Below, one piece after another: positions 1 through 5,224 of a stretch of DNA of 52,540 nucleotides; position 1 is the first letter of the stretch; the number at the start of each line of letters is the position of its first letter. Source of the stretch: Bacteroidota bacterium (GTDB lineage: Bacteria > Bacteroidota > Bacteroidia > JABDFU01); the NCBI GenBank assembly GCA_013286385.1, contig JABDFU010000012.1, positions 1 to 52,540 of the forward strand, read 5' to 3'. The notes beneath the pieces are model-generated. The model worked only from the letters and a program-made list of their open reading frames with translations. It searched no databases and was not told where the DNA came from. A program made the position numbers and the translations under genes.

Positions 1-860
1 TAAAGCAAATGGAGCAAATTGAATTCGCCAACTCCCAGAAATCCGAATTTGAAGGTCTCAATTATACTTGTAACCGGATTAGCGAGTACGATCCATCTGT
101 ATTGCTGTGGAACGAAAGAGATTGGATATACTATCGGAGTGGCATACATGGAAATTTGGACTCCAAATGCAATTAAAAATTTCAAATCCCTGTATTTGGT
201 GGTTATTGATGAAATCAGAATGCCGAAACCAAAGCCCAAAATTCCCATTAACAAAATCAAAAATGGAAGGAATAGCAAAACAGTGTTTGGATGGATAGCG
301 TGAATGCCGAGAAAATAAGTCCAAATGGCGAGGAATAACAACAACTGGATTGCGAATTTAATCAGGTTTGAAATAACGATGGAAAGCGGTACGACGATTC
401 GAGGGAAATAAACTTTGCCGAATATATTTGCATTTGCGGTAAAGGTTTCAGAAGTTTTAATAAGTGTGTCAGCGAAATAATTCCAAAGGGTAACTCCGGC
501 CAGATAAAAGAGCAGTTTTGGTGACCCGTCCGTGGAAACATGGGCAAGTCTTCCGAATACAAGCGTAAAAGTAATTGTTGTAATAAGGGGTTGAATGAAA
601 AACCAGATCGGGCCAAGAATGGTTTGTTTGTAAACCGAAACAAAATCCCTGTAAACAAAAAGAAATATTAAATCCTTGAAACGAAGAATTGAGGCAAGGT
701 TTAATTTGTACCAGCGGGTCGAAGGTTCAATTTCTCTGTCCCAAACTTCTGCCATGTGCGTATTGTGTTCCAAATGCTTTGCAAATATATCCTTTTGCCA
801 GTCAGCAGGCATTGGCTTTGTATTTTTTCTTAAATTGCAGTTCGAAGTGTCAACTAACAT
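1..860 (-). CDS. ABC-2 type polysaccharide exporter permease (Wzm/TagG-like), partial
   Basis: An open frame runs from an ATG at 860 to the left edge without a stop (286 codons), so the C-terminus is missing. The product is an inner-membrane permease that, with a separate ATPase, exports O-antigen, teichoic-acid-like or capsular polymer. Family signatures are visible: YKQTILGPIWF (residues 77-87), FYLAGVTLWNYF (118-129) and VYFPRIVVPLS (150-160), followed by alternating hydrophobic segments. The first 35-50 residues are soluble and poorly conserved in appearance. M36, followed by AEVWDREIEP, matches the usual family start better than M1, so the true start may lie near 755. The gene diverges from the adhesin gene at 879 with only 18 bp between them. 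The ATPase partner is not in the window and would be expected to the left. Family assignment is secure; the transported polymer is unknown. Confidence 0.88.
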   Translation of the reverse strand, partial: MLVDTSNCNLRKNTKPMPADWQKDIFAKHLEHNTHMAEVWDREIEPSTRWYKLNLASILRFKDLIFLFVYRDFVSVYKQTILGPIWFFIQPLITTITFTLVFGRLAHVSTDGSPKLLFYLAGVTLWNYFADTLIKTSETFTANANIFGKVYFPRIVVPLSIVISNLIKFAIQLLLFLAIWTYFLGIHAIHPNTVLLFLPFLILLMGILGFGFGILISSITTKYRDLKFLIAFGVQISMYATPIVYPISFVPQQYRWIVLANPVTSIIETFKFGFLGVGEFNLLHLL

Positions 861-878
861 GATAAATCTTACTCGGGA

Positions 879-1367
879 ATGAATAAGTTGTGTTTATGGC
901 ATTGTTTTGTTTTTTCGTTTTTATTTGTTACCTCCGTTTCCTATTCTCAGTTCTCTCCCGATTCGGTGGCTCACCTGAGTTTTTGGATAAATTCAGATAG
1001 CGTTCATTTCTCCACCGGAAATCAGGTTGCCTATTGCTACGATTTGAGCGGCCATAAGGATACTGCAATTCAGAGGAATGTAAGCGATCAGCCGTCCCTT
1101 GTATCTAATGCTCTGTGTAACAGGAATGGCTTATATTTTGACGGGGTGCAGGACTTTTTGTCGGTTTCTGACACGCTAAAGGTCTGCACAACTTTTTTAG
1201 TAGCGCAATGGACTGGGGGGGGGGGACTGTTTTTCCTAATTGGACAGGAATTATGTCAAATGCCAACGGCGCCACACAACCCCAATATGTTTTTTTGCTT
1301 TATACAGGAAAATCCATTTTTTACCAGGATCCAAAGTATACAGCATTTAATACCAGCATCTATTTAA
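879..1367 (+). CDS. T9SS PKD-repeat adhesin, N-terminal part (frameshifted at G11)
   Basis: This frame encodes a signal peptide (hydrophobic stretch ending near SVSYSQ, residues 1-23) and the first half of a LamG/concanavalin-like domain (WINSDSVHF, FDGVQDFLSV). It then runs into eleven consecutive G at 1215-1225, reads Gly-Gly-Gly-Gly and stops at 1367 in unrelated sequence. The natural continuation (TVFPNWTGIM onward) is in the frame of the 1208-4168 ORF. Nine or twelve G would join the two frames; ten G would stop almost at once at a TAA. The parts are therefore one gene of about 1,095 codons, shown here in an OFF or miscalled state. No clear ribosome-binding site or TANNTTTG box was seen upstream. 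Confidence 0.8.
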   Translation: MNKLCLWHCFVFSFLFVTSVSYSQFSPDSVAHLSFWINSDSVHFSTGNQVAYCYDLSGHKDTAIQRNVSDQPSLVSNALCNRNGLYFDGVQDFLSVSDTLKVCTTFLVAQWTGGGGLFFLIGQELCQMPTAPHNPNMFFCFIQENPFFTRIQSIQHLIPASI

Positions 1368-4168
1368 ATGACTCATTAAATTTGAATTTTTCACCTATAA
1401 ATGCACCAAAAATAATAACAGGCGAATCACCTACTTCCAAGACCATCCCCAATTTAATCATTGGAAATGATCCTATGGATGCCGGAAATTGCCATTGGAA
1501 TGGCTATATCTTTGAAGTGATCAATTATGACACGGTATTGAATAAAGCTCAGATAAACCAGGTTGAAAACTATCTGCACAGCAAATATGCGCCCAAAGTC
1601 AATTTAGGTCCCGATATTTCTATAAATTCCGGATTCTGTGATACAACAATCAGAGCAGGAAGCTGCTATTTGAAGTACAGTTGGTCCAAATTTGACAGCG
1701 TCAATAATTCCTGGTCTGTAATCGATTCATTGCATGACAGTCTTTCCGTAAGCAATACGGGAAAATTTGCCGTTCATACCCTTGATGTGTTTGGGGCCTG
1801 GTCTTCAGATACTATAAGTGTAAAATTCCCGACCATCAGCTATCCTCCAAAAGTATTGCCTCTTTGCAAAGGAGGGACGGTAACCTGGAATACCCGTTTG
1901 GTCAATAGTCAATACACTTTTTTATGGCAGGATAGCATCGTTTCGGATTCGGCCTATTCCATTTCGAGTAGTGGAAACTATTTCGTAAAAATATCGGATC
2001 ATAGAAATTGTTCTCTTCAATCAGACACCATTTCTGTTATTCTTGATGCTTTCAAAGATTCCACCTCGCTTGGACCTAAAGTAAGCATTTGTAAAGGAGC
2101 ACGGATTAAATTAGTTCAGGGAGCAGCATTGGTTCAAGCGTATTCCTGGTCCCCGGGTGGCTCGACTCAGTCAAGTATAGCTATTCTGGATTCGGGCATG
2201 TATTATTTAACAGTAACGGATATAAACAGTTGCATGGCACTTGATTCAATAGACATTGCCATTAAGGGAGTTGCACCGATTGTCGGTTTTTCAATTACCA
2301 ATACAAAATACTGTCAATCAGATTCTGTGAAATTCATAAATCTTTCAAAGGATACAGTCCCCGGTGATTCTATAAAAAGCTGGTTTTGGAATTTCGGTGA
2401 TCTGACAACTGATACAACAAAGAATCCGAGCCATCTTTACAAGTCAAAATCGGATACCGGTACCTTCTCTGTTTATTTGATGATAACTTCCAGTTCAGGA
2501 TGCAGCAATACAAGTCCGGACAGCATTATTCATGTTTACCCAAAACCATATGTCGATTTTTCTTCCCCATTCCTTTTGTGTACAGGTTATGCCACTAAGT
2601 TCACCCCCATAGACAGCCTGTTTGGCTATTCAGTTCAAAGTTATTACTGGAATTTTGGTTCTGGAAAGGGAGATACCAGCCAGCTTCCGGTTTCCCAGAA
2701 AATATTTTCGACTCCCGGTACTTTCAAAGTCAAATTGGCCATAACCAGCAATCATGGATGTATCAGTGATACCGCATTTCATACATTTACGGTGAATCCA
2801 TCTCCAATCGCCAGTTTCACGACAACTCTTCCCTGCGCTGGAAGAGAAGTAATCATTACCGATAAATCTACATCTGTTTCCCCTATCCAGGATCACGAAG
2901 TCCTGTTCGGCGATAATACTTCACCGCTTTTTGTGACGAACGTTAACAATCTTACCCATACCTATACCAATTCAGGTCTTGATTCCCTTCTGATTATTGA
3001 TTCTGCCTTCAATGGCTGCGTTGACACCTTTAAAACCGTTCTAACCGTTCATAGTCTTCCGATCGATACCTTTACAGTTACCGGAACTCCTTTTTGTCTT
3101 AATTCCGGGGTAAATTTTAATTCCCTGGCCTATATTTTCCCTCCGGATACAATCGTCAACTGGAACTGGATTTTTGACGGCACTAAAAGTATTGGTGGGA
3201 AATCGTATTCAACGGTTATAAATCAGTTTTCCACTCCAGGTGTACATACAGCCTTTCTTATTGCAACTTCTTCCACCGGATGTCTGGATTCTTCGCGTAT
3301 TCAATCTTTCAGCATATTGCCATTACCCAATGCTGCTTTTACGTATTCTTCCACAGAAATCAATCCCCCTTTAACTGTTAAATTTTATCCTTCATTTGAA
3401 AGTTCGAAAAATACCTATTTATGGAATTTCGGAGCGGGCAATCACAGCAGTCTTGCAAACCCGTCCGTAAATTATTCGGCATCAGATACAGGGTTGCATA
3501 AGGTTCTGCTTACGTTAATGGATTCTGCCGGATGTTCAGATACTTCTTCACAGCATTTTGACATCAATTTCGCGCAGTATGATGTCACGCTGTGTCCGGT
3601 GACCGCTACCGTTGATGCTTATGGTTTCCTGTCCGTATATGTTACGTTTCAGAATAGGTCCAATCGTCCGCTGACAAACTTAAGTTTTGTTGTTGATGTG
3701 GATGGTGATCCGGGATTTATTGAACAGTGGAATGGTTCGTTAGGTGTTGGAAATACACTCGTTAATTATGAACTGCTTACCCAGCCCCGGCTAAGTTCTA
3801 CTTCAGAACATTCTTATGTTTGTGTAACAGCTGTTTATCCGGACGGCAGCGCAGATTCAGATCCTTCCAACAATACCTGTTGTGCTACGTTGAACAACAA
3901 TGCCTTTAGTCTGCCTAACCCAAGTCCCAATCCTGTCAGCGGAAACATCACCATACCTTTTATTATTCCTGCGGATGGATTGGTGCAGATTAACCTGTTT
4001 AATAATCTGGGACAGAAAATGATGGAAACCATTCAGTTCCCTGCGATTAAAGGTTATAACAGCGTAACCTATTATGCAGGAAATTTACCTCAGGGTGTTT
4101 ACCTGTATCAGGTCGACTACGGTACTTCCCAGGCGGTAAAGAAATTTGTAAAAACGAACATTCAGTAA
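1208..4168 (+). CDS. T9SS PKD-repeat adhesin, C-terminal part (frameshifted at G11)
   Basis: This frame carries the rest of the surface protein that starts at 879. It has the second half of a LamG-like domain ending in NQVENYLHSKYAP (near residue 130), then two Ig-like segments (about 130-350). About five PKD domains follow between 357 and 795, recognisable by WNFG or WNWIFD cores (PKD4 reads WNWIF). A CARDB-like segment (about 791-900) comes next, then a T9SS type A sorting tail in the last 85 residues (PNPSPNPVSGNI, INLFNNLGQK, GVYLYQV). Such proteins cross the outer membrane through T9SS and are tethered to the cell surface or released, commonly acting in adhesion. The ATG at 1208 lies just before the G tract and is probably not a used start, since it would give a protein without a signal peptide. 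Domain calls rest on motif reading; the number of Ig-like repeats is approximate. Confidence 0.85.
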   Translation: MDWGGGTVFPNWTGIMSNANGATQPQYVFLLYTGKSIFYQDPKYTAFNTSIYLNDSLNLNFSPINAPKIITGESPTSKTIPNLIIGNDPMDAGNCHWNGYIFEVINYDTVLNKAQINQVENYLHSKYAPKVNLGPDISINSGFCDTTIRAGSCYLKYSWSKFDSVNNSWSVIDSLHDSLSVSNTGKFAVHTLDVFGAWSSDTISVKFPTISYPPKVLPLCKGGTVTWNTRLVNSQYTFLWQDSIVSDSAYSISSSGNYFVKISDHRNCSLQSDTISVILDAFKDSTSLGPKVSICKGARIKLVQGAALVQAYSWSPGGSTQSSIAILDSGMYYLTVTDINSCMALDSIDIAIKGVAPIVGFSITNTKYCQSDSVKFINLSKDTVPGDSIKSWFWNFGDLTTDTTKNPSHLYKSKSDTGTFSVYLMITSSSGCSNTSPDSIIHVYPKPYVDFSSPFLLCTGYATKFTPIDSLFGYSVQSYYWNFGSGKGDTSQLPVSQKIFSTPGTFKVKLAITSNHGCISDTAFHTFTVNPSPIASFTTTLPCAGREVIITDKSTSVSPIQDHEVLFGDNTSPLFVTNVNNLTHTYTNSGLDSLLIIDSAFNGCVDTFKTVLTVHSLPIDTFTVTGTPFCLNSGVNFNSLAYIFPPDTIVNWNWIFDGTKSIGGKSYSTVINQFSTPGVHTAFLIATSSTGCLDSSRIQSFSILPLPNAAFTYSSTEINPPLTVKFYPSFESSKNTYLWNFGAGNHSSLANPSVNYSASDTGLHKVLLTLMDSAGCSDTSSQHFDINFAQYDVTLCPVTATVDAYGFLSVYVTFQNRSNRPLTNLSFVVDVDGDPGFIEQWNGSLGVGNTLVNYELLTQPRLSSTSEHSYVCVTAVYPDGSADSDPSNNTCCATLNNNAFSLPNPSPNPVSGNITIPFIIPADGLVQINLFNNLGQKMMETIQFPAIKGYNSVTYYAGNLPQGVYLYQVDYGTSQAVKKFVKTNIQ

Positions 4169-4192: not shown

Positions 4193-5224
4193 CTATTGTT
4201 TCTGCTGCTTAATAAATGTTTTCAGATTGGATCCTGCATTCCGCCGGAATTTTTCTTCGAATAAGTCGTGTTCGGAATCATAGCGTATAAATTCCATAAA
4301 GAAGGCATTTTTGCAGAGTAGCGCTCTTTTGCTGATTTTGATGTAACGGATTTTGTTGTTAAGGGCAAGATCCTGAACCCCCAGTACGATAGCTAAAATT
4401 AATTTTTCCTTTTTGGATTTTTTCTCGTAAATGCGCTGATCAACCGTAAGCGTTTTGTAAAGACTGTCCAGTTTTTTCAGGCTTCGGAGTATGTATTGAT
4501 TATAAGTGAGTTCGTCTTGTTGCTCATTCGTGTATCGGATAAACTGCGCAGATTTTTTTCCGAATTTAAATGCGAGAAATTTTTTTGCGCCGGTTTCTCC
4601 TACAAAATTGGCGAGGTTCTCATTGTACTGAATATTGTCTTTTACGAAAACGGTGGAGTGGGTGAGTTCATGAAGAATGAGTTCGGCCAGATTTCCTTCG
4701 CTTTGATAGAGCATAGTTGAAAGTATAGGGTCTCTGAACCAGCCCAGAGTAGACCATCCGTTGGTGCTGCCAAGTTTTGTATCATATCCCTGGAGAATAA
4801 GACTGACCTGTTCAGCCTCGGCTTCTTCTTTACTGAAGAAGCCTTTGTAGGGCACTCTTCCGACTACCGGAAACCACCAGGATTTGATTTTAAGCTCAAA
4901 GGGTTCACATGCGGTAAGAACCCAAATGGCCGGCTTGTTTTTCTGGTCGTAAACGGAAGTATAGTTGGGAGAATTTTTTAGTCCAAGAGAGTCCATTGCA
5001 TACTTTCGGATATCCTCAATCAGTAAAAGTTTTTTTTTAAGCGAATCCTGAAATTGTTTATCCTTCAGGCAATCTTCAACCGGACGGGAATTCATAACAA
5101 TATACACTTGGCCTTTCCCCATTTTAAGGCCATAAATTAGCAGGGAGTTAAAACAGATCAGGAGGAGGCATGAAATCGCAAGAACTGCATCGGTCAGAAT
5201 TTTTAACGTAATTTTAGCTTTCAT
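4193..5224 (-). CDS. putative membrane-anchored zinc aminopeptidase (DUF2265/COG4324-like)
   Basis: The 343-residue protein has an N-terminal membrane anchor (about residues 9-33) and a zinc-metalloprotease motif HELTH at 185-189, followed by ENLANFVGE at about 202-210, which would supply the third ligand. This pairing and the LGWFRDPIL block are typical of the predicted aminopeptidase family PF10023. The substrate is unknown; topology places the catalytic part in the periplasm. It is transcribed away from the YdcF gene, with 14 bp between the two start codons, so the promoters must lie inside the coding sequences or face each other in the same few bases. It converges on the adhesin gene. Confidence 0.75.
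   Translation of the reverse strand: MKAKITLKILTDAVLAISCLLLICFNSLLIYGLKMGKGQVYIVMNSRPVEDCLKDKQFQDSLKKKLLLIEDIRKYAMDSLGLKNSPNYTSVYDQKNKPAIWVLTACEPFELKIKSWWFPVVGRVPYKGFFSKEEAEAEQVSLILQGYDTKLGSTNGWSTLGWFRDPILSTMLYQSEGNLAELILHELTHSTVFVKDNIQYNENLANFVGETGAKKFLAFKFGKKSAQFIRYTNEQQDELTYNQYILRSLKKLDSLYKTLTVDQRIYEKKSKKEKLILAIVLGVQDLALNNKIRYIKISKRALLCKNAFFMEFIRYDSEHDLFEEKFRRNAGSNLKTFIKQQKQ

Follow-up and report, generated by a model that had tools for sequence, protein, structure and literature searches.

Organization of the adhesin locus

The window, which is the whole stretch of 52,540 nucleotides analyzed here, is contig C12 of a metagenome-type assembly of a Bacteroidota bacterium (2.37 Mb, 94 contigs, 65.7% complete). 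Near its start lies a gene that is divided by a run of G residues. The gene is flanked by a divergently transcribed gene for a permease of the surface-polysaccharide export type, and downstream by a gene for a putative aminopeptidase. The features of the locus are listed in Table 1.

Table 1 Features of the adhesin locus and its neighbors in the window.
Feature	Coordinates	Strand	Description
ABC-2 type transporter permease	3..860	-	Divergent neighbor; PF01061, 3.8e-17; cut by the contig end
Adhesin gene, 5' part	879..1214	+	Start codon ATG; signal peptide of the Sec type, recognized by eye (MNKLCLWHCFVFSFLFVTSVSYSQ); LamG/ConA-like domain, first half, by alignment to homologs
Internal ATG	1208..1210	+	In the downstream frame, 7 bases before the run
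Run of 11 G	1215..1225	+	Divides two frames; falls in a loop of the LamG-like domain whose length varies
Out-of-frame extension	1226..1367	+	Translated when the run has the printed 11 G; ends at TAA, 1365-1367
980-codon open frame	1226..4168	+	Encodes the second part of the LamG-like domain, the PKD repeats, and the T9SS C-terminal sorting domain
Putative aminopeptidase	4193..5224	-	Downstream neighbor; PF10023, 4.9e-73

Pfam searches of the frame downstream of the run matched PKD_4 (5.9e-38, in four stretches) and PKD (1.4e-16), and a C-terminal sorting domain was present (Por_Secre_tail, PF18962, E=1.3e-8, 35.4 bits against a cut-off of 27). The 5' part of the gene, searched alone, gave no Pfam match, and a Laminin_G_3 match of the downstream half alone remained below the gathering score (16.7 versus 27.6 bits). 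The LamG/ConA-like domain was assigned from the alignment to homologs, which spans both parts of the gene. From these domains, the gene is predicted to encode a large LamG-PKD-T9SS-tail protein that is probably surface-exposed. The initial annotation had described it as a PKD-repeat T9SS surface protein, and this description was supported by the signal peptide recognized by eye, the four PKD_4 stretches, the Por_Secre_tail domain, and intact homologs at the same locus in the genus.

The G run is the only run of G or C longer than 6 in the window, as the initial annotation had indicated for runs of its length, and in dinucleotide shuffles of the window (n = 100) no 11-G run appeared. The frame before the run is open for 119 codons, or 112 when counted from the ATG at 879, and the run lies in the first 10% of the protein. 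After the run the frame is open for 980 codons if the run has 9 or 12 G, for 46 codons with the printed 11 G, and for 3 codons with 10 G. The frame arithmetic given earlier was therefore correct: 9 or 12 G would join the two frames into a protein of 1,095 or 1,096 aa, respectively, and 11 G leads to the stop at 1367. As printed, the gene is read as one ORF of 162 aa (879-1367) and one of 986 aa (1208-4168), and the Sec signal-like N-terminus shares a frame with the sorting domain only at 9 or 12 G. The 980 codons 3' of the run carry no further damage. A long mononucleotide run inside an ORF with open frames on both flanks is one criterion for a contingency locus, and this arrangement is found here. 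A search of the assembly for a second contig carrying another allele found none.

Orthologs of the adhesin gene in the genus

The PF10023 aminopeptidase gene served as a marker for locating the orthologous locus in other genomes of the genus. The aminopeptidase gene and a PKD gene lie close together in three of them (G003, G004, and G005). The divergent ABC-2 permease gene is also present in G003 and G005, and a different gene occupies that place in G004. In all three genomes the PKD gene has an uninterrupted frame that covers the signal peptide and the LamG-like region, and these orthologs are full length and syntenic. At the aligned position of the run, homologs carry zero to three residues that differ among them, indicating a loop of variable length. 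Comparison of tract length in orthologs had been proposed by the initial annotation as a check on its reading; the three related genes were intact, and no G run at the site reached a length of 7 in any of them. Among the genes at this locus, the frame is broken by a G run in the present assembly only.

The G003 ortholog contains an in-frame G8 in a neighboring, different loop, and in G005 that loop is encoded by mixed Gly codons. The G8 occurs in both of two tandem copies of the LamG-PKD region, which lie about 1.8 kb apart (G003:C37:8269-10554) and are identical in stretches around the G8. The two copies represent either a duplication or an assembly repeat.

Long G/C runs and reading frames in the assembly

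All G/C runs of at least 9 were examined in the present assembly and in five other genomes of the genus, with one assembly per species, and were classified by frame length and by eye. In the present assembly, 4 of the 6 genic runs of this length were out of frame. These were found in the adhesin gene (G11), in a YifB/ComM gene (G10 at contig C20:16671) where a protein of the Mg-chelatase family is split by the run into two halves, in an MlaF-like ABC ATPase gene (G9 at contig C29:7309), and near the C-terminus of a class-III aminotransferase gene (C9 at contig C66:3500). Of the two in-frame runs, one lies in the tail of an SDR-like gene, the other in an IPT/TIG-like gene. The corresponding sites in the other genomes hold Gly or Pro codons in which the G or C stretch is interrupted; they read GGA GGC GGT or similar for YifB, CAG GGT GGG GCA or similar for the ATPase, and GCT CCT CCA or similar for the aminotransferase, with the frame intact at each. 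Relative to these genomes, the runs are longer by 1 (YifB), 1 (ATPase), and 2 (aminotransferase) bases, so that all three clear cases are expansions.

In the other genomes of the genus, about 16 genic runs of 9-14 were in frame versus 1 that was out of frame, as classified by hand. The difference between the present assembly and these genomes gave a Fisher p of about 0.008, a descriptive value that comes from a hand count of small numbers. Nearly all A/T runs of 8-10 in the sequence examined were in frame, as were nearly all G/C runs of 5-7, which indicates that only long G/C runs are affected. A general homopolymer error of the assembly was rejected on the same grounds.

Several further runs were observed in coding sequence. 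In the present assembly (G000), a G8 (L072:884-891, G000:C85) shifts the frame of a secreted-metalloprotease-like gene, with 294 codons before the run and 364 after it, and a homolog-like gene in G001 (L121) has a G9 that is in frame. In G003, a C9 (G9 on the coding strand; L112:2008-2016, G003:C52) breaks a gene for a hydrolase of the metallo-beta-lactamase fold; it was the one clear case of a break at a run in the other genomes of the genus. The longest in-frame G runs observed in the genus are those of G004, where G11, G14, and G14 (L128, L134, and L135) occur in proteins with beta-propeller repeats and in a protein of T9SS type.

Other runs lie upstream of genes. In the present assembly, a C13 (L073:4292-4304, G000:C16:40291-40303) ends 7 bases before the ATG of a gene for a Peptidase_S74 (endosialidase chaperone) protein. 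Its position just 3' of the ribosome-binding place makes it a better-placed candidate for length-dependent control of expression than the adhesin run. Similarly placed runs, a C10 in G001 (L120:1788-1797) and a C12 in G004 (L131:6374-6385), were observed upstream of genes for long proteins predicted to be secreted or at the surface. Also in the present assembly, a perfect intergenic G/C hairpin, C11-TAAATAA-G9 (L066:2500-2526, G000:C39), precedes a divergent ORF of 729 aa by 39 bases; on inspection by eye, this ORF resembles a type III glutamine synthetase.

Distribution of G/C run lengths

The assembly (2.37 Mb) contains 23 G/C runs of at least 8, 9 of at least 9, 5 of at least 10, and 3 of at least 11. 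Counts for lengths 8 to 13 were 14, 4, 2, 2, 0, and 1, a steady fall with no peak at 9-10. For runs of at least 11, the expected number was 0.73 under a first-order model and 0.13 by extrapolation from run lengths in the window. An excess was present at this length only, with descriptive Poisson values from p = 0.04 to p = 0.0003 depending on the model, and it is thus modest to clear. Long runs were not confined to surface genes, as they also occur in the YifB, ABC ATPase, and aminotransferase genes and upstream of the glutamine synthetase-like gene.

Counts of G10 and longer runs across the class were considered as a yardstick and rejected, since, in the two genomes that were inspected (G115 and G118, both Bacteroidia), the top counts came largely from low-complexity stretches. 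The G runs inspected there (L177, L194, L199, and L200) were of G/C/A low complexity, many of them near contig ends, and look like sequencing read-tail artifacts.

Discussion

The break in the adhesin gene is probably a gene-blind change in the length of a G/C run rather than a dedicated surface switch. The run may be a chance product of Gly codons in a loop of the LamG-like domain that tolerates differences in length, and the change in the run would then be part of a process that acts throughout the assembly on G/C runs from a length of about 8. That the YifB, ABC ATPase, and aminotransferase genes are broken as readily as the adhesin gene argues that such a process is gene-blind. A survey of frameshifted genes (GeneTack, PMC3711429) found that a frame transition present in one genome and absent from its orthologs is usually an indel or a sequencing error. 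The adhesin gene resembles the singleton genes of that survey in having a homopolymer frame transition in one genome and not in the orthologs, and differs from them in being a surface-type gene for which phase variation is a standing alternative. The undamaged 980 codons beyond the run count against a gene-blind origin, as they are expected of a gene that is expressed at least some of the time.

A gene-blind change could take two forms. It is quite possible, if short of probable, that the run was mis-sized in the consensus of a metagenome-type assembly, in which case the gene would be in frame in most cells. The contrast with the other genomes of the genus, where comparable runs are in frame, points to mis-sizing. 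Related metagenome-type assemblies carry in-frame runs of up to 14 G, and Illumina indels are reported to occur mainly in runs over 14 bp (PMC8808543), both of which argue against a simple error of this kind. Neutral replication slippage in the sampled strain, which would make the break real and not adaptive, is rather unlikely, although the finding that the three clear cases are all expansions favors real slippage. The genome encodes intact MutS (918-codon frame) and MutL (621-codon frame), which counts against fast neutral slippage; loss of mismatch repair as a cause was rejected for the same reason.

The initial annotation had interpreted the run as a phase switch. Under this interpretation, slipped-strand mispairing would switch the adhesin between the complete protein, made with 9 or 12 G, and a secreted fragment of 162 aa, made with 11 G; we regard this as somewhat unlikely. 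The run is early in a secreted, probably surface-exposed protein, both flanks are open, and the frame beyond the run is undamaged. Further points in its favor are the in-frame G8 in both tandem copies of the orthologous G003 gene and the position of other long G/C runs of the genus within, or immediately upstream of, genes for surface or secreted proteins, including the C13 before the Peptidase_S74 gene and the G11 and G14 runs of the G004 beta-propeller proteins. The gene is similar to the phase-variable poly-G genes of Campylobacter and Neisseria (PMC6321876, PMC5084427) in that a coding-strand G run of at least 8, the length at which G runs are switch-competent in Campylobacter (PMC6321876), lies in a surface-related ORF and one of the three frames gives the full-length product. 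It differs from them in that the run is not kept in orthologs, the steady decay of run lengths lacks the peak at 9-10 seen for phase-variable runs in Campylobacter (PMC6321876), and housekeeping genes are equally affected by runs of similar length in the same assembly. For these three reasons a contingency-locus switch was not favored over a gene-blind cause. The first of them is not disqualifying by itself, because true phase-variable runs are variably conserved among homologs (PMC6321876). Those known genes are defined by variation in length, whereas the adhesin run is known from one assembly, and a text search of open-access papers found no precedent for poly-G switching in Bacteroidota. 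It is similarly doubtful that the run is polymorphic in the population and switches a T9SS-exported adhesin in this uncultured Bacteroidota genus, as one of several long G/C runs that lie within or before its surface genes. Even a neutral run that mutates fast would in effect switch the gene, although it would not be a device that evolved for this purpose.

Two other explanations accept the 11 G as printed. Transcriptional slippage or programmed frameshifting at the run could allow some full-length protein to be made although the gene has 11 G, and a long homopolymer at the junction of two well-kept frames is consistent with this. The motifs described for slippage are mainly A/T runs (PMC3711429), unrelated genes show the same break, and the lack of the run in orthologs excludes a conserved recoding site, all of which makes this explanation very improbable. 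It is barely credible that the locus holds two genes, one for a short secreted protein of 162 aa and one for a protein of 986 aa that starts at the in-frame ATG at 1208. The longer product would have a T9SS tail and no signal peptide, and its export would not be expected. In homologs both parts form one LamG-like domain, and the codons of the 162-aa frame at 1226-1367 resemble nothing.

The gene-blind change in run length would have struck a gene that otherwise resembles those of other Bacteroidota T9SS cargo adhesins (LamG-like, PKD, Por_Secre_tail) in its signal peptide, PKD repeats, and C-terminal sorting domain, and is unlike them in that a G run breaks the frame in the present assembly only. 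The telling control for a contingency locus is whether housekeeping genes of the same assembly are broken at like runs, and here they are. If the adhesin run does not vary, it shows that a single assembly is insufficient for calling a contingency locus. If the run truly varies, slipped-strand switching would join the ways in which Bacteroidota vary their T9SS surface proteins.
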